Shown: positions 7,435-26,264, counted from the first letter of the stretch. The stretch: 55,935 nt of DNA from a virus (IMGVR_UViG_3300042391_000478:1-55935), one strand, 5' to 3'. Program-made: numbers and translations. Notes: a model not told the origin generated them from the letters alone.

Positions 7435-8178
7435 ATGCGAACTGATATTGAAAACTCAATTGTTGAATCGAACCTAGGCGATACATTTTCTAAAGAGCAA
7501 TTCCTTAGTCAAAGCGAACTGTCTTTTTTTATTAACTACTTTAAACAAGCTAGCGAACGAATTCATAAAACTACCGGCCCGGTTACTAGTCAAGAACTAC
7601 GAGATATTTTTACAACTGTTCCAGAGTTCATTTCGTTATTTGATAGAATTAAATCAATCATAGGCGAGTGCGAGATATACACGGCATTTTATTTTCACGT
7701 CGATACTCCACACGTAATTCACAACGATGACGATAAATCATATCCAGTTGTGTACAAGGCTATAACCATTCCTCTCGAATTAGAGTATGAAGATACAAAT
7801 GAAAACTATCCATACTTGTGTTTCTTTGATCAGTATTATTTAAAAGGTCCTGCTAAGTTTTTCAAAGGTGGCGCAAATATTGCTAGTTATTATAATCAAC
7901 CAGTTTATGACTATGCTGATGTTAAAAATAAGTCATCTACACTTATAGATAAACAAACGTATCAGCAGTATCTTACTCACATTAAAATAAGACATTTAGA
8001 GGAGTTAAGTTTAAAATCTGTTGAACTGTGGAAACCTACAAATGCAATATTTTTTGATTGTGTACGATTACATTGTGCCAGCGATTTTAAAGCAGCAGGT
8101 ATCAAAAAGAAACTAGGATTGAGTATTTTTACAAAACTAAAAATTAGTGCGGATGTTGCAGATGCGCAATTGCCTTAG
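7435..8178 (+). CDS. Putative 2OG/Fe(II) oxygenase-like protein
   Basis: 247 residues. Candidate metal ligands: HVD (88-90) or HND (96-98) and a distal His213 in RLHCASDF, followed by basic residues that could bind 2-oxoglutarate. The double-stranded beta-helix pattern is plausible (strands about 80-130 and 200-235), but identification rests on these motifs alone. It opens the accessory island. The 3' end overlaps the convergent gene by 35 nt. No Shine-Dalgarno sequence is close to ATG 7435. Confidence 0.6.
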   Translation: MRTDIENSIVESNLGDTFSKEQFLSQSELSFFINYFKQASERIHKTTGPVTSQELRDIFTTVPEFISLFDRIKSIIGECEIYTAFYFHVDTPHVIHNDDDKSYPVVYKAITIPLELEYEDTNENYPYLCFFDQYYLKGPAKFFKGGANIASYYNQPVYDYADVKNKSSTLIDKQTYQQYLTHIKIRHLEELSLKSVELWKPTNAIFFDCVRLHCASDFKAAGIKKKLGLSIFTKLKISADVADAQLP

Positions 8179-8854
8179 CAACGGTTGCGGAGTTAAATGG
8201 TATGTTCATAATCAAATGAATACTATCATCGGCCCAGCTAATAGTTCTATGAGTTTTTCTTGTGTTAATGTAGTACACCCTACCCATTTCTATTTGTAAT
8301 TTTCTGTCAGTATCGATCAACCAATCGTATTGCAACGGCGCACAGTTATTTAAAAAAACTGCTAGTCTAAAACTTTCTCTAGGCATAGTAGGATGATCAC
8401 GATGCGGCACAAAGTATCCGCCCACATTAGACTTAACTAGAAATGTTCTTCCAAGTGGCTGGAATTCATCTAATAACCCGTGTAGGCTAGTACATGCGGT
8501 ATAGACATCAGTTTTGTTATTAAAATCGTTTTCGCTTAGTCGATGTCCTGCTTCTAAACTTGCCTGAGGTAGACTAGGATTATCTCGATGAGTCTTTCCC
8601 GGAAGATTACTAATAACTAGTCCCTTCCTGTTATTAGGACGATCAGTCCTTGGAAGATAATCAACCCAATCGTTGTCAAATTGTTTAATCTCTTCCATAA
8701 ACTTGCTGCAATTGATCTTGATATTCAGTGGCTCAAAATCTCCAAGATTTAACAATGCTAGTTCGTTCGCAACTGTTTCTAAGTTAACCAATCTAGAATT
8801 AAACTTTGGAGCTCTTCCACTTACACCCGGTGGAACAATTTGGTTAGTTGTCAT
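8144..8854 (-). CDS. Putative 2OG/Fe(II) oxygenase (aspartyl-hydroxylase-like)
   Basis: 236 residues. HRD (151-153) after GGYFVP gives the first two Fe ligands; His202 in THRTISW is the distal ligand, followed by IHLIMNI. The spacing (about 50 residues) suits the JBP/aspartyl-asparaginyl hydroxylase type of double-stranded beta-helix enzyme. It likely hydroxylates a peptide or small molecule. It is on the minus strand with the nitroreductase and the 10592 gene, converging on the 7435 gene. Confidence 0.72.
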   Translation of the reverse strand: MTTNQIVPPGVSGRAPKFNSRLVNLETVANELALLNLGDFEPLNIKINCSKFMEEIKQFDNDWVDYLPRTDRPNNRKGLVISNLPGKTHRDNPSLPQASLEAGHRLSENDFNNKTDVYTACTSLHGLLDEFQPLGRTFLVKSNVGGYFVPHRDHPTMPRESFRLAVFLNNCAPLQYDWLIDTDRKLQIEMGRVYYINTRKTHRTISWADDSIHLIMNIPFNSATVAKAIAHLQHPH

Positions 8855-8869
8855 ACTAAATCCTTTTAG

Positions 8870-10045
8870 TTAGAGATATTTAACCAATGCGTCCAACGTT
8901 GGCCTCAAACTTCGATTTAATCCGACACGGGTTTTAGGCGTTGTATTGTTGAAGTCATGCCCGATTGGAGAATTAAGGACTCCCCGACCCCCAAGCCCGT
9001 CTAGCATAATAGTAGACAACTCATCAATTTTAGTAAAAGCATTAGGCTCGGCTGATAACGATTGATTAATATATTGAATCGTTGCAGCTTGACTAGAATT
9101 ATAAGGCAAATTTACTAGTATGAAGTTTTTAATAAAACTATGCAAAAAGTGGTATGTAGCAATTTCTACATTGGGATTTCTAAGTTGAATCTTTCCCTGA
9201 TTCCAATAATATGATACAACAGTCCTAGTAGCTTCGTTTGAATTAAATTGTAAATCATGCAAGAATGCGCCCAAAATAATTTCAATATCTCGTTGACACT
9301 TCTTTTGAATTATTTCGTCATACATAAATTTATTAAACGGGGCTTTTCTAGCAACTGTATTTTGTTGTATCCATGACGACAGTTCTTGCATAATAAAGTT
9401 TTTATTATTTAAAATAAGTTCATATGCCTGAGGCATTGCTTTTGCTTGTTCGTTAGGGTGAGGAATTGCAAATAATGAGTTGTCATAAACCTGACGGTGA
9501 ATTCTTGGCTCAGTAAACCCGTATCCTATTCCCATTGCTAAGATAGATACTTCGTCTGCCTCCATTGGCTTTTTACCAGTAACTTTAGATACAAAATCAT
9601 ATGTACTTATACAAGCGCAAAATCCTGTTTGCAGTCCCAATTCTTCAGCAGCACACATGGCAACTGTAGCACTAACAATACAATCATCCCTAACACGTTG
9701 CGTATTACTTTCTGCGGCAGCATTCAAATTAGAGCCTTCGTTATATTTCTTTGCTATCCATACTAGAACTATAGGAGCATTTACTTGACCATTGAATCTC
9801 TTATTTCCAGGCGCATCCGACCCACGGATACCATCTACACAAACAGTGTCTTCCCAAAATAGGTATTTTTTGAGTTCTATACTTTCTTCACTAGTGCCTA
9901 GTACATAAATCTTATGATTAAATTTACCTTGTTTAGAAGGCGCTAGTCGTGCAGTTTCTAATATCTGAGTTAGTTTATCAGACTCAACAGTTCTAGGTAG
10001 CCACCATTTTGTTGTAATTCTTTCTAATAAGTGTTCTTTAAGCAT
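8870..10045 (-). CDS. Nitroreductase-family flavoprotein with C-terminal extension
   Basis: 391 residues. The first ~210 residues look like an FMN-dependent nitroreductase: TTKWWLPRTVES, ILETARLAPSKQGKF (29-42), an Ala/Cys-rich helix around AMCAAEELGLQTGF, and AMGIGYG. Family members are usually about 180-220 aa; here some 180 further helical residues follow (about 210-391), not recognised. It overlaps the 10592 gene by 8 nt. Possible roles: flavin-dependent oxidation or reduction in the tailoring island. Confidence 0.78.
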   Translation of the reverse strand: MLKEHLLERITTKWWLPRTVESDKLTQILETARLAPSKQGKFNHKIYVLGTSEESIELKKYLFWEDTVCVDGIRGSDAPGNKRFNGQVNAPIVLVWIAKKYNEGSNLNAAAESNTQRVRDDCIVSATVAMCAAEELGLQTGFCACISTYDFVSKVTGKKPMEADEVSILAMGIGYGFTEPRIHRQVYDNSLFAIPHPNEQAKAMPQAYELILNNKNFIMQELSSWIQQNTVARKAPFNKFMYDEIIQKKCQRDIEIILGAFLHDLQFNSNEATRTVVSYYWNQGKIQLRNPNVEIATYHFLHSFIKNFILVNLPYNSSQAATIQYINQSLSAEPNAFTKIDELSTIMLDGLGGRGVLNSPIGHDFNNTTPKTRVGLNRSLRPTLDALVKYL

Positions 10046-10592
10046 GTAGGTTCTCGGTTAAGTTTTGTATCTGTGTCCAGTCCATCTCAAATGGAATTTT
10101 TAATATAAACACTAGAGGCATTGTTCCGAAAGCTGGATAGTATGAATAAATTTTTCTACCGTTAATAGCAATTGGATTTTTTACAACTTTTGACGCAAAT
10201 TTAGAATTTTGAATTTCAGCGATTTCCTGTGCTGTCATCGGCGGCCTATCTTTTAAGTACGGAGACAGCATTGTTAATCCGTTTACTACAGGCGCTGGCG
10301 CACTATAAAATTCTACATTTAACTCGCCTGATACTGGAAATACAATTAGTCCGTTATTACCAGGATTAGTGTGAATAGGAACTGCTCGCCGTATTGTTGT
10401 TAACGTACAGTGATGGTTATACAATGGGAAATTAAATTTATCAAATATATTCGATACTGTCTCGAGTACTGTAATATTTGAATCGACAAAGGTAAACGGA
10501 CCTGTCCTAGATATATCCGATGAATTTCGGAACATAGATTCTAGCGCATCCTTATCGTAGTCGAAGTTAATATCAATAAAGTGATCTTTCAT
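10038..10592 (-). CDS. Cupin/2OG-oxygenase-like protein with HxN instead of HxD
   Basis: 184 residues from the ATG at 10592; an upstream start at 10628 would overlap the divergent gene. A beta-rich core carries VPIHTNPGNNG (72-81), where Asn76 stands in the place of the usual Asp of the HxD motif, and no clear distal His is seen. It may be a degenerate, non-catalytic or altered-ligand member. A GATAAATA box on the minus strand ends 5 nt before the ATG. Confidence 0.5.
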   Translation of the reverse strand: MKDHFIDINFDYDKDALESMFRNSSDISRTGPFTFVDSNITVLETVSNIFDKFNFPLYNHHCTLTTIRRAVPIHTNPGNNGLIVFPVSGELNVEFYSAPAPVVNGLTMLSPYLKDRPPMTAQEIAEIQNSKFASKVVKNPIAINGRKIYSYYPAFGTMPLVFILKIPFEMDWTQIQNLTENLHA

Positions 10593-10597
10593 ACTGT

Positions 10598-10605
10598 TAT
10601 TTATC
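10598..10605 (-). promoter_or_regulatory. T4-late-like box, minus strand
   Basis: GATAAATA read on the minus strand. Predicted +1 coincides with ATG 10592. It lies back to back with the plus-strand box at 10609-10617. Confidence 0.5.
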
Positions 10606-10608
10606 GTG

Positions 10609-10617
10609 AATAAATAC
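10609..10617 (+). promoter_or_regulatory. T4-late-like box, plus strand
   Basis: AATAAATAC; the last A of TAAATA is 5 nt before ATG 10621, so the predicted +1 falls on the start codon. Confidence 0.5.
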
Positions 10618-10620
10618 AAT

Positions 10621-11271
10621 ATGAACACTTTACAATTTTTGTTAGAGATACCAGAGTTACAATTTGATAGGGATCAATTATTAGAAATTTTTGAACAGGC
10701 TAAGCCCTATGCTAGACTCAAGGGGTTAGTGTGGAAGGAAAAACCGAAGTGGTTACCGCCATTAGACAAAGCTACATGCCTTGTTATTCAATCCGGCGAG
10801 TATATGATGCTAGATAAAGATAAAGCTAATATGGGCTACAATTTGCTACAGCACGATTATCTTAAAGACATCATGAAACGGTTAAGATTTAGTCATGAAA
10901 TAAAATCTGGAAATATTGATATAATTTGGTACAGACCAGGCTTTCAATTTGAACCACATGTAGATCATTATGCAGCAGCTACAATGATGTGGCCAATATT
11001 TCCCGCTAGCGGCGGCGCACCGATAGATTTTTATTATAATGAAAATGTTAAAATCGAAGCAGGGGTCGCGGCAGGGTTAGAAGGAATCATAACTAAAAAA
11101 GATTTAATTCATACACATTATTATAATACCACCTACCCAACAATCTTTAACAGTCACTGGATACACGGAGTACGCAGGGTTACTGAAGAACGAGCATATC
11201 TAAGATTACGTATTAATGAATCATTTGAATCAATTGTTAACAAATACAATAACAAAGAACTAGTAGAATGA
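10621..11271 (+). CDS. Putative 2OG/Fe(II) oxygenase
   Basis: 216 residues from ATG 10621. HVD (113-115) sits in GFQFEPHVDHY, preceded by IIWYRPG, and a distal His182 lies in SHWIHGVRRV with the 2OG-anchoring basic residue probably in RAYLRLRI (191-198). This is the standard H-x-D...H...R order of the fold. It starts a plus-strand run of coupled genes; its end overlaps the next ATG (ATGA). Confidence 0.75.
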   Translation: MNTLQFLLEIPELQFDRDQLLEIFEQAKPYARLKGLVWKEKPKWLPPLDKATCLVIQSGEYMMLDKDKANMGYNLLQHDYLKDIMKRLRFSHEIKSGNIDIIWYRPGFQFEPHVDHYAAATMMWPIFPASGGAPIDFYYNENVKIEAGVAAGLEGIITKKDLIHTHYYNTTYPTIFNSHWIHGVRRVTEERAYLRLRINESFESIVNKYNNKELVE

Positions 11272-11801
11272 TAGATAACGAATTTATTTATGAGACTAGC
11301 TGTACATTCAATACTATGTATTTGCTTAATCTAGTGAACCAGTCTATAGCACATAAAAGTATAAAGCAACATCAACGACTGGTTAAAGATGATCCGTATT
11401 TAACTTCGATTAGACAGCAGATACCAATGCTAACTCCTATTTGGAACTTTTACAAATTAGAACCGTATGCTATGATTCCAGTTCATGTCGATGCTCAACG
11501 TAATTGCGCATTAAATATTCCACTCCAAGGTACCGACCAATCTAAAACATCATTTTATAATTCAATAGGTCCTGAAAATTTTGTATACGATTCTACAAAG
11601 ATTCTACATTGGGCAAAGCACGACTTAGCAAAAGTATTTGAATTTAATTTAACCCAGCCTACGCTGATAAAAAATAACGTACCACACGGAGTGATCAACG
11701 GCCCTCATCGACGAATAATTTTGAGTTGGAGTATAACCCTCGACTTCACGTTTGAGCAGGCAAAGCTAATTTTAAAAGATCAGTCTATTGACTTTAGTTA
11801 A
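11268..11801 (+). CDS. Putative 2OG/Fe(II) oxygenase-like protein
   Basis: 177 residues, ATG overlapping the previous stop. HVD (73-75) in AMIPVHVDAQRN and His140 in NNVPHGVINGPHRRIILSW give a complete ligand set, with Arg148/149 as candidate 2OG anchor. It looks like a compact cupin-type hydroxylase. Substrate unknown. Confidence 0.68.
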   Translation: MIDNEFIYETSCTFNTMYLLNLVNQSIAHKSIKQHQRLVKDDPYLTSIRQQIPMLTPIWNFYKLEPYAMIPVHVDAQRNCALNIPLQGTDQSKTSFYNSIGPENFVYDSTKILHWAKHDLAKVFEFNLTQPTLIKNNVPHGVINGPHRRIILSWSITLDFTFEQAKLILKDQSIDFS

Positions 11802-11824
11802 CATTCATGCTAAAATATGAATAT

Positions 11825-12526
11825 ATGAATTATGACATTTTTCACATAACATTTAACGAATCTAACCAAGAAGAAAATTGGTTAAGAATATTAGACCTGC
11901 ATCCCAATGCAAAACGCATACACGGAATTGCAGGCATAGATCGTGCCCATATGGCCTGTAACTCGTTAGCTACAACCGATTGGTTCTGGACTATCGACGG
12001 CGACAACTGGCTAACTGAATCATTAATATGGACTGATATAAATCCACGCAAAGATCTAATATGGTTTTATGCGTTAGATCCAGTGACTAACAAGCGCATT
12101 AAAAATGGTGGCGTAAAATTATGGAAACGAAATAGTTTCGTAAATACCGACATGAGTCAAGGCGATTTCTGTGTGGCTGCTGTGCAATCAAAAATTAGTC
12201 CCGATAAAGTATTCTCAATTACCAAGTATAATTCTATTCCATATGACGGGTGGAAAACTGCATTTAGACATTGTGTAAAATTAATGTCTAGAATATTTAG
12301 AGACAGACCGTTAGCGGTTAATATTGAACACTACTTAGGCATATGGCGTTCGTATGAAAATTTAGATGATGGGTCGAATAACGCCCGATGGTGTTACCAG
12401 GGATATCTCGATGCAGCAGAATATACAAAGTTGTGTAATGATGATTTAGAATTACTTTATAAAATAAATGACTATGTATGGTTAAAAAATTACTTTAATA
12501 ACAAACATGAAAACAGAATACATTAA
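11825..12526 (+). CDS. Glycosyltransferase-like protein (GT-A type)
   Basis: 233 residues from ATG 11825; ATG 11807 would add six residues. It opens MNYDIFHITFNES, then PNAKRIHGIAGIDRAH, then TDWFWTIDGDNW, whose DGDN resembles the DxD metal/nucleotide-sugar site of GT-A enzymes. The C-terminal half has aromatic-rich helices (HYLGIWRSYEN). The pattern resembles glycosyltransferase-like proteins of T4-like marine phages. It could add sugar to a virion or envelope component. Confidence 0.6.
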   Translation: MNYDIFHITFNESNQEENWLRILDLHPNAKRIHGIAGIDRAHMACNSLATTDWFWTIDGDNWLTESLIWTDINPRKDLIWFYALDPVTNKRIKNGGVKLWKRNSFVNTDMSQGDFCVAAVQSKISPDKVFSITKYNSIPYDGWKTAFRHCVKLMSRIFRDRPLAVNIEHYLGIWRSYENLDDGSNNARWCYQGYLDAAEYTKLCNDDLELLYKINDYVWLKNYFNNKHENRIH

Positions 12527-13136
12527 AGGTAATGATCTCGATCATAGCAGGATTGCCGCTTACATTCCGGAAGTTATGAATGCGTTATACGATTCGGTAT
12601 CTTTCGAGTCGACTAGCTTGACTGAAATGCGAGACGCATTTCGAATGAAACAAATTCAAGGTAAAACTTGGCTACTTAATAGTGGTCTATTAGACCATTG
12701 TTTGGATAAATCAAAAAGTGTATTAGTAGTCGGCAGTTGGTTTGGGTTTACTAGTTTTTGTTTACATAAATTGGGATTTAGCAACGTAACTGAGGTTGAT
12801 CCCGACAGCAGATTAGAACATTTTGCCAAGCACCTAAATAGATTTAACAAGCAGTATACACACATTACAGCTGACATTAATACAGTTGATATGTCATCTT
12901 ATGATATCGTTGTAAACCCTAGTGGCGAACATATTGTAGATAACACGTGGTTCGACAACATAAAAACTGGCGCAACAGTAATTATTCACAGCACGGATTA
13001 CCCAGCAAGCGACCACGTTAACACATGTCAACAACAGGACGAATTGTTAAGTAGATATAAAATGTTACCTACGTTTTTAGGAACATTAGATTTACAAACG
13101 TACAAACGTTTTATGATTGTAGGAATAAAAACATGA
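12507..13136 (+). CDS. SAM-dependent methyltransferase-like protein
   Basis: 209 residues. The class-I motif is VLVVGSWFGF (72-81), with an acidic residue closing strand 2 (TEVDPD, 95-100). Motif II/III region SYDIVVNPSGEH is present. It overlaps its upstream neighbour by 20 nt and the next gene by 4 nt. Distinct from the three other methyltransferases of the island, which share a GCGxNQxK signature. Confidence 0.72.
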   Translation: MKTEYIKGNDLDHSRIAAYIPEVMNALYDSVSFESTSLTEMRDAFRMKQIQGKTWLLNSGLLDHCLDKSKSVLVVGSWFGFTSFCLHKLGFSNVTEVDPDSRLEHFAKHLNRFNKQYTHITADINTVDMSSYDIVVNPSGEHIVDNTWFDNIKTGATVIIHSTDYPASDHVNTCQQQDELLSRYKMLPTFLGTLDLQTYKRFMIVGIKT

Positions 13137-13645
13137 GCATTGAAAAACCACGATTCTTTAAAATACTAGGCAAAACCGATAGTAAACGTGCAGTAAAACA
13201 ACTATCTTCTATAATCCAACAAATGGAAGAGGAAGATATCGAACAATGGGGTCTTAAGGGTAGACTTGACGGCGACGAAGATATTGACTACGGCGAAGGT
13301 AAAACTAGACCCGGATCTAAACTATCAGATTGGAATCATTGGAGAGATGAAACATACAACTCGGGATGGCTGGCAGAATTAATAGAGATGCTTCAGCCGA
13401 GAGAAATTGGACGAATTCGTATAATGAAGATGAAGCCTAGAAGTTGTTACTCTTGGCACAGAGACTTGTCGCCCCGTGTGCATATTCCGTTAATAACCAA
13501 TTCGGAAAACTTTATGATTATACGTACTGAATCAAGACACTTGTATACCGGAGCAATATGGTGGACTGATACTCGTCAAAATCATAGCGCAATGAATTGT
13601 TCAGATAAAAATAGATATCATTTAATTTTAGAAGTATCGGAATGA
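13133..13645 (+). CDS. Putative 2OG/Fe(II) oxygenase (Asp/Asn or Pro hydroxylase-like)
   Basis: 170 residues. HRD (109-111) in SCYSWHRDLSPRVHIPL is a textbook first motif, and NHSAMNCSDKNRYHLI (150-165) holds the distal His151 and Arg161. Spacing and the R-V-H-I-P-L strand fit aspartyl/asparaginyl beta-hydroxylase-type enzymes. Coupled (ATGA) to both neighbours, next to a sulfotransferase-like gene. Confidence 0.8.
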   Translation: MSIEKPRFFKILGKTDSKRAVKQLSSIIQQMEEEDIEQWGLKGRLDGDEDIDYGEGKTRPGSKLSDWNHWRDETYNSGWLAELIEMLQPREIGRIRIMKMKPRSCYSWHRDLSPRVHIPLITNSENFMIIRTESRHLYTGAIWWTDTRQNHSAMNCSDKNRYHLILEVSE

Positions 13646-14334
13646 GAGATAATATAATTTGGTTTACTGGAGCTCCCGGATCAAAATGGAGCGGTAGTGC
13701 TAATATATTACAAGCTATCCCGCATCTTAATTTTAATATTACTGATAGAAGTTCTGATAGAGAATATACTCATCCTGGTACAACAGAATTATCTAAGGGT
13801 ATTATGCACACTGGGGCATACTTTGGTCCAGGGCACGGTCTCGGAGAGCAATTCCATTTGCTAGATACACTAACAGTTGACGAAGTTGAAAATGAAATTG
13901 TAGATAAGTGGCAAACTGTACAAGGCAAGCTACTAGTAAAAAGCCACTTCTTCTCTAACCAATTAGACTACATTGCCAACACTTGGAAAGATAATGTAAT
14001 TATAATGATACTACGTCCAGATCAAACCTGTATACAAGGTTGGTTTGGCGCTGGCGGTTGGAGTATTGCATACCCTGATTACAGACCGTTTTATAAAAAC
14101 GGTGATAGAATGAAAGAGCTAATAGCAGAACACAACTTTAATATTAAACAGTTTTGCACAAAACACAGTTTACCTTTTAATAAATTAAACGAACAATTTT
14201 TAAAAGATGAATTTGATTGGGATTATAATTCTATTGAAGATGCTACGCAACGAGCATGGGTTGAACGACATCTACGACATACTGAAAGTCAAGACGATGT
14301 CGAAATAGCAATCTTCAATAGACACAAATTATAA
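13642..14334 (+). CDS. Sulfotransferase-like P-loop protein
   Basis: 230 residues. GAPGSKWS (10-17) replaces the PKSGTTW 5'-phosphosulfate loop, KSH (100-102) matches the second conserved element, and ILRPDQTC (123-130) the 3'-phosphate region of PAPS sulfotransferases. Paralogues lie at 18458 and 22880 with the same order and a conserved GAYFGP/GVYFGP segment. A role in sulfation is inferred from these motifs; another P-loop activity is possible. The stop abuts a convergent methyltransferase gene. Confidence 0.6.
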   Translation: MRDNIIWFTGAPGSKWSGSANILQAIPHLNFNITDRSSDREYTHPGTTELSKGIMHTGAYFGPGHGLGEQFHLLDTLTVDEVENEIVDKWQTVQGKLLVKSHFFSNQLDYIANTWKDNVIIMILRPDQTCIQGWFGAGGWSIAYPDYRPFYKNGDRMKELIAEHNFNIKQFCTKHSLPFNKLNEQFLKDEFDWDYNSIEDATQRAWVERHLRHTESQDDVEIAIFNRHKL

Positions 14335-15066
14335 AGTTTTAGAATAGACAAAATACAAACGATCGTTGTTGTCTTTTTTAAATGTTTCTAAGTTTAAATT
14401 AAATTGTTTAGCAAATTCAGTAACTAGTGCAAAGTCCCAGGGAAAAATATCCACGTAAGGTCCGTTGTTCCAAATGTTACCCGGATTAGCTCTAAAGTAT
14501 ATTTTCCCGTCATCTTCTAGTAACTCTACAATCTTAGCCAATCTGATTTCTAAATCAATTTTTTCGTTGAAGTTTAATGACCCTAATACTAGAATATGGT
14601 CGTATGTCTTATCAGGCATGACAAAATCTAGCACGTCAACCATATAGTCAGCACAGTTATTATAAGGGTCGATACCAACTAGATTATTAATCCTTCCTTT
14701 AAACTGATTGTATCCGCATCCCACATCTAGTACAGCTTTTGGGTTGTGCTTGTTAACTTCGTCAACAAGTGCCCAGCCGCTGTAGGTATATACTTCAGTT
14801 GTCGGTTTCCAAATTTCGCCAAAGTATCTAGTAAGATATTTGACATCTAAATTGTCTACTATTTCTTCAATTGTACCGTTCTCTGGAACATCAAATCCAA
14901 GTTCCTTACGAACCCTAGTCTTAAATTTGTCAAATCTAGCAGGAGTCCAAGGCAACGATTCCATAGTTGTCTGTTTTGTTAGATTGCTACGAATTTCTGT
15001 ATACTTTTCTAAATTAAAAGAATTATGCAAATTTTCAATTAATAGCTTAAAAATTCTGGTATTCAT
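14329..15066 (-). CDS. SAM-dependent methyltransferase (island family, copy 1)
   Basis: 245 residues from the minus-strand ATG at 15066, chosen for its AAGAGG ribosome site. Motif I VLDVGCGYNQFKG is followed by INNLVGIDPY, then LVLGSLNF and a FRANPGN segment. The genes at 20110 and 21302 have the same GCGxNxxK-x-xINNLVGID block, so these three form a paralogous set. Substrate unknown. Confidence 0.85.
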   Translation of the reverse strand: MNTRIFKLLIENLHNSFNLEKYTEIRSNLTKQTTMESLPWTPARFDKFKTRVRKELGFDVPENGTIEEIVDNLDVKYLTRYFGEIWKPTTEVYTYSGWALVDEVNKHNPKAVLDVGCGYNQFKGRINNLVGIDPYNNCADYMVDVLDFVMPDKTYDHILVLGSLNFNEKIDLEIRLAKIVELLEDDGKIYFRANPGNIWNNGPYVDIFPWDFALVTEFAKQFNLNLETFKKDNNDRLYFVYSKTL

Positions 15067-15085
15067 TATGTTTTTTCCTCTTTTC

Positions 15086-15094
15086 GATAAATAT
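15086..15094 (+). promoter_or_regulatory. T4-late-like box upstream of Bug-family gene
   Basis: GATAAATAT on the plus strand, about 80 nt before ATG 15174. A minus-strand AATAAATAA box (15131-15139) faces the opposite way for the methyltransferase, making a possible divergent pair. Confidence 0.4.
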
Positions 15095-15173
15095 TCTTGT
15101 AATAAAATAAATTTCATTCATTTTTGTAAATTATTTATTCTACGAGCATATATAGTTATCAAGGAGACAAATA

Positions 15174-16726: not shown

Positions 16727-16737
16727 AGTAAAAATAA

Positions 16738-17091: not shown

Positions 17092-17112
17092 ATAGTGCAT
17101 AGGAGAATAACC

Positions 17113-18461: not shown

Positions 18462-19333
18462 TATTAGAAAATTTTGATTTTGAAAATTACCAAGGCGAAG
18501 ACCTTATTATAGCAACTGGTGCGCCTGGTTCTAAATGGAGCGGGCTGCTGAATGCTATATCATTCCATAACGATGTAAACGATGAAGATAAAGCAGATCA
18601 TCGAAAATATTTCATTTATTATGAACAAGCCGACACCGGCCAAATTTTAAAAATGGGTTGGCATTTCGGTGTATACTTTGGACCAGATAATGAATATGGT
18701 CACAAATTTGACAATCTTAAATCTATATCTAAAGAAGATATGGTTAGAGAATTTGCTAAACCTTACAAGACCTGGGACGGAATTAAGATTATTAAAAGTC
18801 ATTGGTTTGCATATGATTTAGATACACTGACAAAATATTTTCCCAAGGCAAAAATTATAGTAGTATGGGCACCTGATGAAAGTTGTTTTGATTGGTGGAC
18901 ACACCTTGGAGGTTGGGATATCAGCTTCCCCGTGTATACCTGGTACAACAACGATACTAGGATGCAGGAAAAGGTAAGAGAAGAAAATGCTTATATACTT
19001 AAATTTGTATTTGAAAAGAATTTAAAAATATCAAAGGGTAACATTAAAGAAGTGTGCAATATGTTAGGGTTAACTTCGGACACTAATTCATTTAAAAACT
19101 TCGATCCAAATGATCTATCAAAGAATGTATCTCGAGACCCGCTCTACCACGCAGATTTAGGAGCAACCGGATCGTTAAGTCAGCTAATTGGAAGCACATT
19201 ATTTGCAATTTATAATCCAACTACTCATGTTGATGATCATCCAGTGTTGCGGTTGATTGACAATGCGTTTGCCAAACGATCAGTACACAGTATAGACACA
19301 CTAATTCCACTAGGAAAAAATTATGAAGTTTGA
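18458..19333 (+). CDS. Sulfotransferase-like P-loop protein (long form)
   Basis: 291 residues. GAPGSKWS (21-28), KSHWFAYD (113-120) and a VVWAPDES segment correspond to the conserved blocks of the 13642 and 22880 proteins, plus the GGWDISFPVYTWYNND block shared with 22880. A C-terminal extension of about 60 residues is not in the paralogues. PAPS-dependent sulfation is a reasonable inference, unproven. Confidence 0.6.
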   Translation: MILENFDFENYQGEDLIIATGAPGSKWSGLLNAISFHNDVNDEDKADHRKYFIYYEQADTGQILKMGWHFGVYFGPDNEYGHKFDNLKSISKEDMVREFAKPYKTWDGIKIIKSHWFAYDLDTLTKYFPKAKIIVVWAPDESCFDWWTHLGGWDISFPVYTWYNNDTRMQEKVREENAYILKFVFEKNLKISKGNIKEVCNMLGLTSDTNSFKNFDPNDLSKNVSRDPLYHADLGATGSLSQLIGSTLFAIYNPTTHVDDHPVLRLIDNAFAKRSVHSIDTLIPLGKNYEV

Positions 19334-20120
19334 TAATAATTTTTACGAAGAATACATGAGTATTAAAACAAAGGCTCCTGTAACAAAAGACGGATTTGAC
19401 AGCTTATACGAATACTGTCGAGCTACTAGCCACTATCACTTTGATAACTCTATAAAAGATGATAGAACAACTACCTGTGAAAATCTCCTATACATACCGT
19501 TATGCAATTTCACTGGTGACTGGTCTAACGAAATAGCTGAGATGACTGGCATGGCAAAGCCATTTACTTTTGATTTACGTGGACAGCCGCGCTTACAAAA
19601 TAACAACAGCATGGAACGCAATGACTTTGATAAATGGGGATATGTTACCGACGGGGATCAGCCTTACGTTGTGTTAAATAGAGCAAAAACAGAAGTTATA
19701 GGCAAACTACAAAAAATTGCAGATCTATTTCACTTAACATACCCACAAGTTGTGCGATACGATGTACAACTACCCGGTCAAATGTTTTATTATCATATTG
19801 ATAACTTTGGTGCTTTACTAAAAAGTAAACGAGGTGACTATGAAAGATTTGCAGATTGTGATTACGATCAACGTAAAATGATACGCTTAATTGTATTTTT
19901 AGAAGATCAGCAACCAGGGCATATATGGCAACAAGGTAATGAATACTTATCTTGGAAGAAAGGTGATTGTTTTACATGGCCGTGGAAAGACATACCTCAC
20001 GGTACCGCAAATTGTGGCCATACACCGAGGCCAACACTAAATATTACTGGAATGCTAACTGATAAAAGTTACGAAGTGTTAAAGAATTTTCCTAAAAGTA
20101 TAAATGTAGATGAACTGTGA
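19323..20120 (+). CDS. 2OG/Fe(II) oxygenase, paralogue 3 of 4
   Basis: 265 residues. HID (158-160), His226 in WKDIPHGTANCGHTPRPT and Arg236. An insertion around residues 165-183 enlarges the loop after HID. N-terminal HYHFDN matches AYHFDN of the other copies. It overlaps the previous gene by 11 nt and the next by 11 nt. Confidence 0.8.
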   Translation: MKFDNNFYEEYMSIKTKAPVTKDGFDSLYEYCRATSHYHFDNSIKDDRTTTCENLLYIPLCNFTGDWSNEIAEMTGMAKPFTFDLRGQPRLQNNNSMERNDFDKWGYVTDGDQPYVVLNRAKTEVIGKLQKIADLFHLTYPQVVRYDVQLPGQMFYYHIDNFGALLKSKRGDYERFADCDYDQRKMIRLIVFLEDQQPGHIWQQGNEYLSWKKGDCFTWPWKDIPHGTANCGHTPRPTLNITGMLTDKSYEVLKNFPKSINVDEL

Positions 20121-20754
20121 ACTATTAGAAACAATCAAAGGTGCCTTTGATTCTCAAATAAAAAATACATACGAGTTACGAGACGATGACTCTAGAGAAG
20201 CTTTTTTAAAAAAGATTGTAGAAAAATATCCCGTAAACGGTAAACCTATGATTGAAGAGATTAATAGTAGTAATCCGTCTCTAGTAATTGATTTAGGTTG
20301 TGGATTAAATCAATATAAAAATGTTATTAACAATCTAGTGGGAATTGATATTATTGGGGTACGGGAAGATATTACAGCAGACATTAGCGATTTGTCTGTA
20401 CACTTTGCAGACCATACTGCCGATGTAGTTCTAGCACTTGGTAGTATTAACTTTGGAACTGACGATACAATTTCACAGCAATTGGCAGAAGTAAAACGCT
20501 TGCTAAAGCCCGGTGGTGTAGCTTACTTTAGAGCTAATCAAAACGACCACGATAAAGATCATCAAGGTACATTACGATATTACGATTGGTCTACTGAAAG
20601 AGTAATAGAATGGTCCAACAAATTCAACTTTGAAATAGTAGGAGAAGTTGAATTAAAAGAAGGAAGAGCTGGAGTAAATGATCGAATGAATCGAGAATTT
20701 GTTGCAAAGAAACGATCTAATATTAGATTATTTTGGAAATGGAAATCAATATGA
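20110..20754 (+). CDS. SAM-dependent methyltransferase (island family, copy 2)
   Basis: 214 residues with VIDLGCGLNQYK, VINNLVGIDI and LALGSINFG, matching the 14329 and 21302 proteins. LKPGGVAYFRAN is the usual post-III strand region. Overlaps both neighbours, so part of one coupled transcription unit. Confidence 0.85.
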   Translation: MNCELLETIKGAFDSQIKNTYELRDDDSREAFLKKIVEKYPVNGKPMIEEINSSNPSLVIDLGCGLNQYKNVINNLVGIDIIGVREDITADISDLSVHFADHTADVVLALGSINFGTDDTISQQLAEVKRLLKPGGVAYFRANQNDHDKDHQGTLRYYDWSTERVIEWSNKFNFEIVGEVELKEGRAGVNDRMNREFVAKKRSNIRLFWKWKSI

Positions 20755-21302
20755 CAAAAGTGTTTGTGTTCGGTGCACCTGGTAGTGGCACACTAAAAGT
20801 ATCTGAAGAATTATACTCTAGAGACGATTTTAAAAAAATATTTAAAAATGATCCCATCTATAAAAGAGCATCGTTTCCTAAAGATATTAAATGGGCAGAT
20901 GTACAGCCAGTACTTGATGATAATTATCAAGAAGGACAACTAGAACAATATGAAATTGCTAGCGGTTGGTGGCTTTACAAATATTACCATAAAATAATTG
21001 CCACTTACCCTGATGCAATTATTATTTGTGTTAGTAGAAACAGTCAAGAGTCTCTATGTACTATTGGTGTTAATGGCAGCTCTTACGAAGCTATCGAAAA
21101 TCATGGTGGCGAAGATGCTTACCGAAAACAAATAATAACAGCTGATGTTGAAATATCTAATATAGCAGCGTCATTAAATGCCGACTGGAAATATGTACAT
21201 AGCGATGAAACTATTTTTGATAAAGAATTTAACTGCATTAATTCAAAAGACGAGTCGCTAGCTAAGCCAGCAACAATTAAAATTGCAGTGGGTAATTTAT
21301 AA
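20751..21302 (+). CDS. P-loop protein, distant sulfotransferase/kinase-like
   Basis: 183 residues from ATG 20751 (overlapping the previous stop). GAPGSG (8-13) near the N-terminus and IIICVSRNSQES in the place of the 3'-phosphate segment suggest a shortened relative of the other P-loop proteins of the island. The K-S-H element is not seen. Function uncertain. Confidence 0.5.
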   Translation: MTKVFVFGAPGSGTLKVSEELYSRDDFKKIFKNDPIYKRASFPKDIKWADVQPVLDDNYQEGQLEQYEIASGWWLYKYYHKIIATYPDAIIICVSRNSQESLCTIGVNGSSYEAIENHGGEDAYRKQIITADVEISNIAASLNADWKYVHSDETIFDKEFNCINSKDESLAKPATIKIAVGNL

Positions 21303-21904
21303 TGGATCCGTTAGATCTAGCTAAAAAATTTAATCCTGCTACTTGGGACGGATTCATGGCGTTCCAACATTACACCCACAGTGGAATGAACTTGATTGAT
21401 GAAGTGAATTCGCTAGATGCCGACTTAGTAATTGATGTAGGTTGCGGACATAATAGATTCAAAGGGCATATTAAAAATTTAATTGGATTCGATCCGCAAC
21501 CGTTTCCAATGGCAGACATTCAGTCAGATATCGCTAGCATTAACTTTAGACCGGAATCAGCTGATGCATTACTAGTACTAGGCAGTATTCAATTCGGCAC
21601 TAGAGAAAATGTAAAACAAAATTTAGATAAAGTAGTTACTTGGCTTAAACCGGGTGGCTATATTGTTATGCGTACACTGTATCAGTTTGATACAAATGCA
21701 ATACCATACGCGGATGTACACTATGCATGGACAGATAAGGATATTGAAGAATTTGGTTCTAGTAATAATTTAACAATAATTAAAGGACCGTTCGTAGATC
21801 AGGCGCCAAAATCGAGCAGATTAGTATGGTGGTGGCAAAAAGAAGGCACACTTAAAAAATATTCAATTGACCCGTTAACTTGCAATAGGATAGAACGTAC
21901 ATGA
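21302..21904 (+). CDS. SAM-dependent methyltransferase (island family, copy 3)
   Basis: 200 residues, TAATG start overlap. VIDVGCGHNRFKG, IKNLIGFDPQP and LVLGSIQFG align with the two other family copies. LKPGGYIVMRT is the C-terminal strand region. It ends in an ATGA overlap with the next oxygenase. Confidence 0.85.
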   Translation: MDPLDLAKKFNPATWDGFMAFQHYTHSGMNLIDEVNSLDADLVIDVGCGHNRFKGHIKNLIGFDPQPFPMADIQSDIASINFRPESADALLVLGSIQFGTRENVKQNLDKVVTWLKPGGYIVMRTLYQFDTNAIPYADVHYAWTDKDIEEFGSSNNLTIIKGPFVDQAPKSSRLVWWWQKEGTLKKYSIDPLTCNRIERT

Positions 21905-22878
21905 GTAAAAATTTAATTAGAGTTATCCCCCACGATGAATGGGTTGTTAAACAAAAAGCCCTGCAAGAAAAACAACATATATGGGATCAACAGTATCTAG
22001 CATATAAACGAGGAGAAGGACCAAAACCTACCTTTAGACATCCTAGAGACTGGTTTGATCCCGATACCGGCAAACCAAGCCGATGGCTTCATGGGAAAAC
22101 ATACGGCAACTACGATGAAACTAGATTCGGACCTGATCCCATTGATAGTGTTATTGATCGACTAGGAATATTTGAAGGTGTTGATTGGCAAGCTGAAATA
22201 GAATTTGCAGAAGCAAATAATTTTGGTCCAATAAATTTAATACAGCGAACTGGTACTCCTGAGCATATGGAAAAGACTAGTACGCATTATCCGCACAGTA
22301 TGGTTAATGATGCTGAAAAGATAGGATTAAAATTAGAAGATTTAATAATGTTCGACAGTGCCAAGCCCGGCGACGGTTGTAGACGTATTGGTAATTTTTT
22401 AGGATTAGATTTTGATCAGGCGCAAGAAGGCGCACAACGAGATTACGGATATGACAGTTTTCATATCCAGCGTCCAGGACAAGTATTAATGATGCATCAC
22501 GATATCTATAGTGCAGTAATACGTGATAAAGACCAAGAGCTTGCATGGCGCCCTGAAAAATTAAAACGATTTGTGATTTTTATGGAAGATTGGAAGCCTG
22601 GCCACATATGGAGTGTAGGTAATACTACATGGAGTCACTGGAGAGCAGGTGAATGTATCACATGGAATCATAATGATATGCCTCATGCAACTTGCAACCT
22701 ATCGAGCAAGTCTAGGTATAGCGTACACTTAACTGGATACCTAACAGAAAAAACTTGGAATTTTTATAATAAAGGCAATCATAACATGCGATATCGTCCT
22801 AGAGCAGACGGTCAGGCTGGATTTGATGCATTTCAAAAAAATGAAGACGGTACTGAAACCTTGATATATACTGCTTAA
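21901..22878 (+). CDS. 2OG/Fe(II) oxygenase, paralogue 4 of 4 (long)
   Basis: 325 residues. HHD (199-201) in RPGQVLMMHHD, the DWKPGH block, distal His262 in DMPHATCN and Arg272 in SRYSVHLTG. An N-terminal extension of about 80 residues, rich in Trp, Pro and charged residues, distinguishes it from the other three. It lies between a methyltransferase and a sulfotransferase-like gene. Confidence 0.8.
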   Translation: MSKNLIRVIPHDEWVVKQKALQEKQHIWDQQYLAYKRGEGPKPTFRHPRDWFDPDTGKPSRWLHGKTYGNYDETRFGPDPIDSVIDRLGIFEGVDWQAEIEFAEANNFGPINLIQRTGTPEHMEKTSTHYPHSMVNDAEKIGLKLEDLIMFDSAKPGDGCRRIGNFLGLDFDQAQEGAQRDYGYDSFHIQRPGQVLMMHHDIYSAVIRDKDQELAWRPEKLKRFVIFMEDWKPGHIWSVGNTTWSHWRAGECITWNHNDMPHATCNLSSKSRYSVHLTGYLTEKTWNFYNKGNHNMRYRPRADGQAGFDAFQKNEDGTETLIYTA

Positions 22879-22879
22879 T

Positions 22880-23560
22880 ATGAATAATAATTTTAAACTT
22901 GTTTTATGTACTGGCGCTCCTGGTTCGGCTTGGAGTATGATTTGTCAACGTATGCGACTTCAGATTGCAGGCTTTGATATGTCGGATCAAAGCCCCGACA
23001 GAATGTACAAAATGCCAATTGAGCATACTAAAGATTATACTGTGACTGACGATACGTGGAAATCCTATACTCATAACGGTGCGTACTTTGGGCCGCATCA
23101 CGAATTTGGTAACACATTTGATAATTTGGCAGAGTGTGATACTAACGAGTTTGTTAGTGAGTGTCTTAAGCCTTTTAGTGATGCAACTAAACCGTTGAAG
23201 CAGATTAAAAGCCATTGGTTTGCCTACAACTTAGATTGGATCTGGGATAACTGTAAAGGCCAAGATTTATTGTTAGTGTGGCGCGGTGCCCAGGAATGTA
23301 AAGATTGGTGGTATCATATGGGCGGCTTTGGTATCTATTATCCCATTTATAAATGGTACGAAAATGATGAACGTATGTGGGAAAAAATGCAAGAAGAAAC
23401 AAATAACATTTGGGACTTTGCAGAGAGAAAGGGATTGAAATGGGATAACTATAGTACAGACTGGGTCACTGATCGTTTTCCAAATGCAACGACCCAACAG
23501 TTTAAAGCAGAACCTAATATAGCAGACACAATTAAAGTTTGCTATACAACAATTATTTAA
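22880..23560 (+). CDS. Sulfotransferase-like P-loop protein
   Basis: 226 residues. GAPGSAWS (12-19), GAYFGP (67-72), KSHWFAYN (110-117) and LVWRGAQEC follow the pattern of the 13642 and 18458 proteins. Aromatic-rich DWWYHMGGFGIYYP is the shared central block. One base separates it from the preceding oxygenase stop. Confidence 0.6.
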   Translation: MNNNFKLVLCTGAPGSAWSMICQRMRLQIAGFDMSDQSPDRMYKMPIEHTKDYTVTDDTWKSYTHNGAYFGPHHEFGNTFDNLAECDTNEFVSECLKPFSDATKPLKQIKSHWFAYNLDWIWDNCKGQDLLLVWRGAQECKDWWYHMGGFGIYYPIYKWYENDERMWEKMQEETNNIWDFAERKGLKWDNYSTDWVTDRFPNATTQQFKAEPNIADTIKVCYTTII

Positions 23561-23571
23561 GGAATTTAATT

Positions 23572-24159
23572 ATGAGAATGTATATTGTAGCCGGAGTCGT
23601 TGGTTCCGGAATTACCGAAGTAGTTGGTCAATTATGGGAGGACCTATTCTCTAGAGGATTTAGATCTTCAAGAATAGTATATGGTCGCAGCGATCGTGTT
23701 GATTTTAATTCAACAGAAACTGCCGACGAGTTTATTGCAACAATCGAACAAGATCTTCTTAATCGCGCCAACACTACTGATATTATTATTACAGGAAGTT
23801 TGGCGGCAAAATATCACAGAGAAATTAGAGCAAACTGGCCAGACGAATCAATAATTATATTTGTAAGAAAATCAAATGAACAGCGAGGTATTGAAGCTGG
23901 GTTATGTCTGCTAGAGACCCATACATCATACGACAGAGAATCGTATGCAGAATTTATAAGGATTCAATTAGACGCATTAGATCAGTCAGTTGAACAGATG
24001 AACGCTGCGTGGGTTGACGTTGATGTTAGTAACATGTTTACAGTCGACACTGAAAAGTTATCAGAAAGTGACAACATGACACCTAATCTATTTTTAGTCA
24101 ATGAGTATACTGGTCCAAAATCAGCAGATTGTGTATTACGACAACTTGCAATTTATTAA
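23572..24159 (+). CDS. P-loop-like protein of the island (195 aa)
   Basis: ATG 23572 follows AAGGA. AGVVGSGITEV (7-17) resembles the P-loop region of the neighbours and IIIFVRKSNEQ the later Arg block. The lysine of a classic Walker A is absent. Possibly a diverged sulfotransferase/kinase relative. The TAA overlaps the stop of the convergent 24156 gene (shared TTAA). Confidence 0.5.
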   Translation: MRMYIVAGVVGSGITEVVGQLWEDLFSRGFRSSRIVYGRSDRVDFNSTETADEFIATIEQDLLNRANTTDIIITGSLAAKYHREIRANWPDESIIIFVRKSNEQRGIEAGLCLLETHTSYDRESYAEFIRIQLDALDQSVEQMNAAWVDVDVSNMFTVDTEKLSESDNMTPNLFLVNEYTGPKSADCVLRQLAIY

Positions 24160-24980
24160 TTTTTTAACAGCAATTTATAATTTTCATCTATTGCAGTTGC
24201 ATTAATAAAACTTTTAATTAAGTCAATATCCAGATTGTCCCATGTTACATTTATGTAACTGGGACTTTCTTTTATGCGTTCAGCATGTTGCGCTGTAAGC
24301 AGACTAGAAACGTAAGATTTATACTCATCATCTAAATCTTCAGTATATTCTAACTGTTGTTTATTTTCCCAAGCCCAGAAATCTCTATAAGTAGGCTCAA
24401 TATTTTTTAATGATGTAGTTGACCGCACTTCTACTAATTCATCTAATAGCCTTGCATGGTCATTAATGTATAACGGTTTAAGATTTTTATTCTCAATTGT
24501 TATTGGAAATAATGCAGTTGTTTTTAAATATCGATCGATAACATACTCTATATCTAAATCAACTAAGTTAATAACTTTAGCATTTGGGAATCTAGATAAA
24601 ACGTAATCAGCTGTATCATGTAACACCCATACTAAAGATTTATCACTATTGATAATATTATCTGCACCTGCTGCAGTCATTTGATTATTCCAAACTGTAG
24701 AATAGAACGTGTCTAAATCATCTGTATTCCAAAATCGTTCAATTCGTTCGCCGACTAACGGAATCATGTTAGTTGCAGTTCTTCTATCAAAATGGAACGA
24801 GCTAATATCTTTACCTTTAACTACATCGCTAGGAAATATCCTCCACGGATATTTCCCGTTACGTATGGCTTCGTACCAAAATACATTATCAAAGCAACAT
24901 AGGATACGTCCTAATCGATATCCTCCGCCTGCCGGACTTGCTAATATAAAAATTAATTTATCGCTATCAGTATAATTCAT
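24156..24980 (-). CDS. P-loop-like protein, minus strand (274 aa)
   Basis: FILASPAGGGYRLGRIL near the N-terminus (about 11-27) is a Gly-rich loop like that of sulfotransferase-type proteins, and VINLVDLDIEYVID a later strand. No Walker lysine, no KSH. It overlaps the upstream GNAT-like gene by 14 nt, forming a three-gene minus-strand unit with the ANL-domain gene. Confidence 0.45.
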   Translation of the reverse strand: MNYTDSDKLIFILASPAGGGYRLGRILCCFDNVFWYEAIRNGKYPWRIFPSDVVKGKDISSFHFDRRTATNMIPLVGERIERFWNTDDLDTFYSTVWNNQMTAAGADNIINSDKSLVWVLHDTADYVLSRFPNAKVINLVDLDIEYVIDRYLKTTALFPITIENKNLKPLYINDHARLLDELVEVRSTTSLKNIEPTYRDFWAWENKQQLEYTEDLDDEYKSYVSSLLTAQHAERIKESPSYINVTWDNLDIDLIKSFINATAIDENYKLLLKN

Positions 24981-25557
24981 TTCTACTCCTAAACCCTTCT
25001 CGGGCTGTAAAATACGTTTCTAAATTCAAATTCCATACACTCTGCTCAGTGTCAAATAATATAACTTTTTCTTCTAGACAAGATACTAAACCTTGTTTTT
25101 CTAATAATTGGAATACTCGATGACTCTTACTCATAGAAGCAATACCGTCCGGATTACTCCAATTAGTTGTAACTACAAATTTTGTAGCATTAGCTTTTTT
25201 AGCCCACTCTATTTCTAACGGTACATGATAGTAGAACGGTAGTGACGACATGTGAGTCTTGCTGACAATACCAAATAAATTTCTATATTCTGGCAATTCT
25301 ACTCCTCTAAACAATAGCCTAAAAATATCATGACCCACTTGCGGTAAAGGATGACATCCACTTAACCCGATTAACATATCATCTAAGTACGTTAGATAAA
25401 ACTGGCCTCCGTTATCAATGCACCAGTCTAATTTCATAGCTCGCAAAGAACTGTTATTATGGTAACCTAGCCGGCGACACTTAAAACAAAAATCTTCTAA
25501 ATCTGCTCTATGGGCAGAGTCATAGACGTAAGTAGTTACCCTTTCTTCGGAGACCAT
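24967..25557 (-). CDS. GNAT-like acyltransferase candidate
   Basis: 196 residues. The order of elements (an N-terminal helix pair, a LTYLDDMLIGLSGCHPLP strand pair, then a helix and IEWAKKANATKFVVTTN, ending in a loop-strand SCLEEKVILF) resembles the GCN5-type acyltransferase fold, but the R/QxxGxG/A acetyl-CoA loop is not evident. It overlaps the ANL-domain gene by 22 nt. Acyl transfer after adenylation would be logical for this pair; inference. Confidence 0.4.
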   Translation of the reverse strand: MVSEERVTTYVYDSAHRADLEDFCFKCRRLGYHNNSSLRAMKLDWCIDNGGQFYLTYLDDMLIGLSGCHPLPQVGHDIFRLLFRGVELPEYRNLFGIVSKTHMSSLPFYYHVPLEIEWAKKANATKFVVTTNWSNPDGIASMSKSHRVFQLLEKQGLVSCLEEKVILFDTEQSVWNLNLETYFTAREGFRSRNELY

Positions 25558-26264
25558 ATGTCAATTACCTTGTTAGTTCTTCCAGTATAGTATAACACAT
25601 TATTTTGTAAAAATACACAATCTTTAGTATGGTACCAGTCGTCGTATATAGATATGTCGCCGTTTACAACTAGTTCACCGTTTACGATTTTCCAATCGCA
25701 ATAAAATCTATCACCTAACACAGTTGCATTAGCTATAGTAGTAGAATGCACATCCTCAACAGTTTTAAATACTTTGTTTATCGCAATTGGTCCGATTTCG
25801 CTCATCCCCCAGTTGGTCATAACAGTTGCGCCTCTTTCTACAAAGGCAGTAACAATATCAGCGGTTACAGGATCTGCGCCAATAGTGACCCAAATACCTG
25901 TTAAGTCTAAATTTTGAAAACCTTTGGTCAACATGATAGCTTTTGCATGTAACGGTGTAATATGGGTATGAGTATAATTTTTAATGACTCGAACAAACTC
26001 CCATGCATTAAATTTAACAATGTCAACTTGAGCTCCTATACTCAATGCTGGTAAGGTCTGCGCCAGCAGTCCGCCCGCATGGGTAGTCTTACAGCAGGTA
26101 TAAATTTTACTATTGATAGTAATTTGTTGAGCTTCTAATGCCACCCGACACGCAGCCTGAAGTTTTTCCGGAGTTTGGAAATAAGGTGCTGGCTGTCCGC
26201 TAGTTCCCGAACTGTATATAGTAATACCATTTTCCAAAATATATTCGTAATCGATAAGATTCAT
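25536..26264 (-). CDS. Minimal ANL (AMP-forming) adenylating domain
   Basis: 242 residues, less than half of a normal acyl-CoA synthetase/NRPS A domain. Recognisable motifs: YSSGTSGQP (17-25, phosphate loop, lacking the usual following Lys), NWGMSEIGP (151-159, adenine/acyl site), YHTKD (211-215, standing for Y/W-x-TGD) and YYTGRTNKVID (225-235). The N-terminal ~150 residues and the C-terminal catalytic-lysine subdomain are missing. A divergent promoter lies right upstream. It may activate a carboxylate for the GNAT-like partner or may be a binding-only remnant. Confidence 0.75.
   Translation of the reverse strand: MNLIDYEYILENGITIYSSGTSGQPAPYFQTPEKLQAACRVALEAQQITINSKIYTCCKTTHAGGLLAQTLPALSIGAQVDIVKFNAWEFVRVIKNYTHTHITPLHAKAIMLTKGFQNLDLTGIWVTIGADPVTADIVTAFVERGATVMTNWGMSEIGPIAINKVFKTVEDVHSTTIANATVLGDRFYCDWKIVNGELVVNGDISIYDDWYHTKDCVFLQNNVLYYTGRTNKVIDIWSPKKG

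Follow-up and report, generated by a model that had tools for sequence, protein, structure and literature searches.

The stretch of viral DNA considered here, IMGVR_UViG_3300042391_000478:1-55935 (the window), is a linear IMG/VR record of 55,935 bases, probably a fragment, and its positions 7435–26264 hold an island of enzyme genes. Our best explanation treats this island as an enlarged form of a widespread, undescribed phage cassette in which a solute transporter (TctA/TctC2, TctC1 alone, or a sodium:solute symporter, SSF) is combined with a sulfotransferase-like P-loop protein (S), a methyltransferase (M) and a 2-oxoglutarate (2OG)/Fe(II) oxygenase (O). Judging from the genes and their neighbours, we put at about an even chance the proposal that through this cassette a small solute or sugar moved by the transporter has a hydroxyl, a methyl and an anionic group added to it.

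The core of the island is a recurrent cassette of S, M and O with either the tripartite tricarboxylate transporter or SSF. Scans of IMG/VR returned 192 relatives of S and 522 of O; in 80 loci selected for O, S lies within 10 kb in 57 and M within 10 kb in 73. Overlaps of 4 nt or 1 nt recur at the S→O (17 of 19 at −4), TctC1→S, TctC2→S and TctA→O junctions, M is mostly divergent from the transporter operon, and the place of TctA/TctC2 is taken by TctC1 or, in many loci, by SSF (PF00474).

The linkage is reciprocal. Among 79 viral loci picked solely for a relative of the phage TctA, TctC2 is present in 74, M in 64, S in 56 and O in 48, and 71 carry at least one of S, O, M and Sx, a second P-loop family. 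After dereplication, S, O or M occurs in 35 of 38 lineages, and M is no more than 3 kb from TctA in all 31 that have it. As a control, 80 loci picked by a common phage nucleotidyltransferase contain S or O in only 8 cases. In 14 viral records of 100–349 kb with both S and O, 11 have their nearest pair within 10 kb, where random placement predicts 2.6; the genes are therefore linked in relatives and not scattered, in line with the original prediction of a single tailoring island.

All the island genes named in that prediction were recovered among 27 open reading frames (ORFs). Overlaps occur at 20 of the 26 junctions, six same-strand overlaps being exactly 4 nt, which supports the earlier view that the genes are made together and points to a largely co-transcribed and co-inherited unit. 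The G+C content of the island (36.7%) is lower than that of either flank (41.3%), with the TctC gene (43%) and the C26-hydrolase gene (42%) as exceptions. In a relative, G001 (loci L002 and L010), the gene order of 11807–26264 is kept with 42–91% protein identity, apart from two genes, TctC1 and the C26 hydrolase of the window: in the interval from M2 to the membrane protein, G001 instead carries an HO-like gene, a divergent C26 hydrolase (28%), TctA and TctC2. Further upstream, a fibre-like gene and a dehydrogenase replace the window's 7435–11801. Between the window and G001, nonsynonymous divergence (dN) is 0.06–0.55 and synonymous divergence (dS) high or saturated in 19 island genes; since dN is far below dS, these genes are under purifying selection, and because 19 of the 27 have such syntenic homologues, chance can be excluded.

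Four of the O proteins, O7 (17095–17778), O8 (17775–18461), O9 (19323–20120) and O10 (21901–22878, with a long N-terminal extension), all on the plus strand, form one family (hhalign probability 100%), and O10 has the highest identity to G001 of any island gene (91% of amino acids). In 60 of 60 diverse family members, H132, D134, H190, R200 and Q123 are invariant, as is a nearby Asn. The metal triad HxD...H is thus complete in every sequence, and R200, 10 residues after H190, occupies the place of the basic residue for the 2OG C5 carboxylate. An AlphaFold2 (AF2) model of O8 (mean predicted local distance difference test, pLDDT, 92.5) has the double-stranded beta-helix (DSBH) fold, its best matches including bacterial prolyl-4-hydroxylase, proline cis-4-hydroxylase, AspH and other DSBH proteins, while PDB sequence profiles gave nothing convincing for O. 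On catalytic residues and modelled fold, O7–O10 are predicted 2OG/Fe(II) oxygenases, and since all four paralogues are kept by purifying selection, distinct substrates are suggested.

In all, the island holds ten 2OG-type candidates, where nine had been counted. Besides O7–O10, the assignment stands for O6 (13133–13645, plus), an Asp/Asn beta-hydroxylase-type domain (PF05118 Asp_Arg_Hydrox, E 3.4e-11), and for O2 (8144–8854, minus), solely as a remote relative of O6 (hhalign 92.9%) with an L064 homologue 82% identical. The remaining four were recognised mainly by motifs and reach at most 30% in hhalign against the O family. They are O1 (7435–8178, plus; HxD and a distal His) and O5 (11268–11801, plus; HVD and a distal His), both with homologues only in L064/L066; O3 (10038–10628, minus; HxN), with no family match and no homologue in the fetched loci; and O4 (10606–11271, plus; HVD...H), with a weak profile match to the O family (30%) and homologues in marine cassette loci. 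A Pfam scan of the O1–O5 group members gave no family match for any.

S1 (13642–14334), S2 (18458–19333) and S3 (22880–23560), all on the plus strand, belong to one P-loop family with the signature GAPGS(K/R)WS (GAPGSKWS in S1, followed by KSH and Arg). In 76 S sequences the P-G-S and W-S of GAPGS-x-WS are invariant; in the KSH motif, H112 is found in 76 of 76 and K110 in 72 of 76, as in a catalytic K-x-H on a central strand, and an Arg lies 23 residues C-terminal to the KSH His in 59 of 76. S2 has Ala at the 3'-binding Arg position. The P-loop is placed as a 5'-phosphosulfate-binding loop after strand 1 would be, yet it does not read PxSGTTW. Pfam sulfotransferases match S1–S3 at E 0.16 at best, a remote relative, s4, reaching 0.002, and PDB sequence profiles gave nothing convincing for S. 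The one strong BFVD match of the S model is to a phage protein annotated 'Sulfotransferase family' (2.5e-16), an annotation and not proof. We therefore describe S as a sulfotransferase-like P-loop transferase. Three further relatives had been proposed: by hhalign to S, s4 (20733–21302, plus; 95%) and s6 (24156–24980, minus; 89%) hold as remote members, whereas s5 (23539–24159, plus; 52%) is doubtful. Marine phages carry Sulfotransfer_3 genes of unclear function (PMC10580990); they resemble S in being phage genes annotated as sulfotransferases and differ in being isolated genes, S1–S3 matching the Pfam families no better than stated above.

The M family comprises M2 (14329–15117, minus), which is divergent from the transporter operon and present in 104 S/O-selected loci, M3 (20110–20754, plus; PF08241 1.3e-6) and M4 (21302–21904, plus; PF08241 2.2e-5). 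M3 and M4 score at or above the PF08241 cut-off and have the S-adenosylmethionine-binding motif I; M2, a class I methyltransferase, was assigned via the family. The closest solved structure is a phosphoethanolamine N-methyltransferase (2e-7). The trio that had been recognised is thus one family, and the fourth, M1 (12507–13136, plus), syntenic in G001, is a methyltransferase-like protein distinct from it that reaches only E 0.07 with Methyltransf_11.

Three consecutive plus-strand genes had been overlooked: TctC1 (15174–16154), a periplasmic solute-binding protein of the tripartite tricarboxylate transporter type with an apparent signal peptide (PF03401, 9.2e-23; hhalign 97.6% to the phage TctC2 family); a class I glutamine-amidotransferase/C26-type hydrolase (16118–16726; PF07722, 1.2e-15); and a small membrane protein (16738–17091; 80% identical in G001) with a possible TctB-like role, TctC2 being followed by a transmembrane protein (TM) gene in nine loci. 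The likeness to TctABC transporters lies in the TctC (PF03401) of the window and in the TctA (PF01970, 1.3e-88) and TctC2 of G001; the difference is that the phage TctC2 has diverged too far for the Pfam TctC profile to recognise it and that the window has no TctA. The HO-like (putative diiron) protein, found at L071:7465-8163 and in window-type relatives, regularly has the C26 hydrolase as the next gene after it (15 adjacencies) and gave no Pfam, NCBIfam or PDB match.

The cassette is almost absent from deposited phages. Among 50,697 records, S and M occur in just one single-cell marine virus (AG-345-D19), O8 has no match, and TctA has only seven distant matches (26–31% identity); 20 island proteins scanned against PHROGs gave none. 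The earlier remark that this is not a described phage system is consistent with these results, and in the open-licence literature (subscription papers and preprints being beyond reach) we found no paper that joins phage 2OG oxygenases, sulfotransferases and tctA in one cassette.

In a single scan covering 84,980 genomes of bacteria and archaea, four S loci were found, all with cassette genes. Two are on contigs of metagenome-assembled genomes (MAGs) of Rhodobacteraceae and Pelagibacter, possibly phage contigs, the latter with the order TctA-TctC2-S-O-M. The marine bacterium B5-7 has M-S-TctC2-TctA beside a 2OG oxygenase (PF13640, 5.3e-20). The cultured Tahibacter aquaticus DSM 21667 (L172:517-11251) has S, M and the HO-like gene, with a canonical sulfotransferase (PF13469, 1.8e-35), a weaker second one, a sulfatase, an arginine-deiminase-family protein, a radical SAM protein and a MATE exporter as neighbours. 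This neighbourhood has the look of a biosynthetic cluster not yet characterised and gives the strongest indirect support to a predicted sulfur-group chemistry.

We propose the following order of steps. A small solute would reach the infected cell by way of the binding protein and the transporter; O would hydroxylate the solute, or a sugar or headgroup derived from it; M would methylate it; and S would transfer an anionic group, probably a sulfuryl from host 3'-phosphoadenosine 5'-phosphosulfate (PAPS), onto the new hydroxyl. The extra enzymes (Asp_Arg_Hydrox type, C26 hydrolase, ANL, GNAT-like, nitroreductase, GT-like) would vary the product, from which the phage would presumably benefit. A soluble substrate is favoured by the dedicated transporter, which is the chief clue and had been overlooked, and by the bacterial neighbourhoods; that all the enzymes act in series on one scaffold, as originally proposed, is not established. 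In a bolder form, which we regard as a long shot, S, M and O in phages of many lineages would make a sulfated, hydroxylated and methylated chemical messenger or weapon, TctA/TctC2 or SSF would move the compound or its precursor, so that infected cells would produce or perceive a compound peculiar to the phage; in that case the 19-kb island would be a more elaborate form with several products.

It should be noted that several observations weigh against the solute-modification reading. Ser at +8 from the Arg is never seen in S, the position being Trp in 64 of 76 sequences and Gly in 12 of 76. The S3 AF2 model (pLDDT 94.2) has no PDB match of any kind at E ≤ 1e-3; its top solved matches are nucleoside and nucleoside monophosphate (NMP) kinases (E 0.02), and the sulfotransferase 3-OST-1 comes at rank 48 (E 1.1). 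Structure search thus upheld the expected oxygenase fold for O8 and matched S3 significantly to no solved sulfotransferase. Because the motif order resembles that of sulfotransferases but the +8 Ser is absent, no PDB fold is matched and the BFVD match is an annotation only, S was not filed as a sulfotransferase. In the window, which is probably a fragment, TctC1 is present but TctA is not, although TctA is found in G001 and other relatives. A candidate PAPS-forming pair is not specific to the cassette, as described next, and S1 follows a fibre gene by 35–36 bp in close relatives, which suits decoration of the virion better.

The pair in question, an adenosine 5'-phosphosulfate (APS)-kinase-like protein and a mini nucleotidyltransferase, lies in or beside many cassette operons, often with 4-nt overlaps. 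We dropped PAPS supply as evidence for the S chemistry because the reciprocal test failed (the 8 of 80 nucleotidyltransferase-selected loci given above) and because the nucleotidyltransferase is closest to nicotinamide mononucleotide (NMN) adenylyltransferases. As a separate observation, the two proteins (GRWQPWHxGH...GRDVGY...ISATKIR) are adjacent or fused at L142:13972-14807, L093:9112-9972 and elsewhere; IMG/VR holds at least 600 candidates, mostly unlinked to S or O.

The first alternative is that the O, S, M and GT-like proteins act on the phage's own tail fibres, in a way comparable to the hydroxylation of collagen by viruses and the glycosylation of phage virions. We consider this rather unlikely. 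In close relatives a repeat-rich fibre-like gene lies right upstream of S1, at the distance given above in L091, L035 and L095; the order is fibre-O6-S1 in L011 and fibre-SDR-GT-M1-O6-S1 in G001, and in AG-345-D19 a 1615-aa fibre-like gene precedes two S genes. The O model also matches peptidyl hydroxylases, the collagen hydroxylase vCPH of the Chlorella virus PBCV-1 (PDB 5c5u) being listed at rank 47; it resembles O8 in its viral 2OG DSBH fold and differs in being a single peptidyl hydroxylase without linkage to a transporter, S or M. That S1 stands behind a fibre gene speaks for the virion as the target of some of the island at least, a fit seen mainly in the window's own clade.

As a general rule, however, the fibre linkage was rejected: although true in that clade, it fails across the family, a fibre N-terminal domain being near the cassette in 11 of 169 S/O-selected and 6 of 79 TctA-selected loci, against 2 of 80 control loci. 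Cassettes also adjoin genes that appear topoisomerase-like and DNA-polymerase-like, and a fibre gene of this kind is missing from the window. Core pairs are present on bacterial contigs too, and decoration of the virion leaves the transporter linkage unexplained. The suggestion of a phage tail or capsid protein as the target is therefore weakened as a general role. Enrichment of a T4-type late promoter was likewise rejected, as TATAAATA occurs twice in the window, less than expected by chance. The island may well combine a fibre-associated module (GT, M1, O6, S1) with a transporter-associated one (M2, TctC, O7–O10, S2, S3, M3, M4), to which a module of ANL, GNAT-like and s6 genes is added.

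A second alternative, somewhat less probable in our judgement, is modification of the host envelope, in which a surface glycan or lipid headgroup would be decorated (for example, to block superinfection) with a unit supplied by the transporter. It would be in keeping with the GT-like genes that accompany the cassette in 21 loci, with a NodU-like carbamoyltransferase predicted in L092 and L106, and with the closeness of M to phosphoethanolamine N-methyltransferases. The C26 hydrolase has as its best NCBIfam match gamma-glutamyl-CDP-amidate hydrolase of capsule phosphoramidate synthesis (9.4e-19), but at 68 bits against a cut-off of 250. The likeness to the Campylobacter O-methyl phosphoramidate (MeOPN) capsule pathway lies in this match and in the methyltransferases and group transfer of the island; the difference, besides the low score, is that the kinase, cytidylyltransferase and glutamine kinase are absent from the window. 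The MeOPN pathway was accordingly set aside and kept as a lead. Among the window's genes we recognised no flippase, polymerase or lipid-carrier enzyme.

Still less probable is a set of loose auxiliary metabolic genes (AMGs) that act separately, for instance by shifting host 2OG to steer nitrogen control. TctC-type proteins can bind tri- and dicarboxylates, which would suit such a role. 2OG-Fe(II) oxygenases are common in cyanophages, several per T4-like genome as here, and a role in nitrogen control has been proposed for them (PMC3037559); the proposal concerns modulation of 2OG, the passages available to us do not connect these oxygenases with a transporter, S or M, and deposited phages contain no match to O8. 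Viral contigs of SUP05, one host group, carry a 2OG-Fe(II) oxygenase, tctA (with no assigned role) and dsrC among their AMGs (PMC4164917). They share with the cassette the oxygenase and a TctA-domain gene but differ in that these are separate AMGs, no S/M/O operon being mentioned in the passages of that paper available to us. Against independent action, S, M, O and the transporter are closely linked in both directions and translationally coupled, and the four selected O paralogues suggest distinct substrates.

Base-modification islands can hold sets of 2OG oxygenase, kinase and GNAT genes. Hypermodification of phage DNA bases by the oxygenases, kinase-like P-loop S, methyltransferases and GNAT-like protein is nevertheless very improbable: the nearest solved folds of the S model are nucleoside and NMP kinases, but the O model resembles hydroxylases that act on peptides and amino acids, and neither the transporter linkage nor the core pairs on bacterial contigs suit it.

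The remaining genes of the island are of varied certainty. The nitroreductase fusion (8870–10045, minus) was borne out, PF00881 (2.4e-8) covering residues 8–175 of 391, with a C-terminal region of no assigned fold, as was the minimal ANL (AMP-binding) protein (25536–26264, minus; PF00501, 9.6e-12, covering the middle of the profile, 168–337 of 384). The GT-A-like (DGDN; 11807–12526, plus) and GNAT-like (24967–25557, minus) calls found no family match, in Pfam for the former and in Pfam or NCBIfam for the latter, and both are kept as candidates; the GT-A-like gene is syntenic in G001 and is the one found in the 21 cassette loci, and the GNAT-like gene is conserved beside ANL, the module they form with s6 being present in 15–19 loci. 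Over the whole island, Pfam recognised only nitroreductase, Asp_Arg_Hydrox, TctC, the C26 hydrolase, two methyltransferases and AMP-binding. In marine loci L041–L047, a tryptophan-halogenase-family gene (PF04820, 8.2e-70 in L044) lies a few genes past the cassette, beyond neck-type genes.

Outside the island, the window encodes RIIA, RIIB, nicotinamide adenine dinucleotide (NAD) salvage and DNA ligase genes of T4-like myovirus type. Ten large non-island proteins were scanned and included no recognisable head or tail gene, and no tRNA or known RNA family was found in the window. Directly before the island, on the plus strand and with apparent signal peptides, lie a dienelactone-hydrolase-like gene (5383–6195; no Pfam) and a histidine phosphatase gene (6256–6849; PF00300). 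Directly after it (26331–26730, plus), a 73-aa translation initiation factor IF-1 (PF01176, 1.2e-15) is encoded behind a 61-aa MazE/AbrB-type protein (PF04014), with a perfect TTGACA-17-TATAAT promoter upstream (26267–26295).

Taken together, viral tctA, some viral 2OG oxygenases and some phage sulfotransferase-like genes, which had earlier been listed singly as auxiliary genes of marine viruses with no assigned role, are joined by one cassette found in hundreds of viral contigs. Orphan annotations thereby become one testable pathway with defined parts and with related genes in the cultured Tahibacter aquaticus, and with the S family comes a P-loop group transferase that lacks a close counterpart among solved structures. 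A small-molecule product would mean phage-made chemistry of a new kind; decoration of the virion would link viral hydroxylation and sulfation of fibres.

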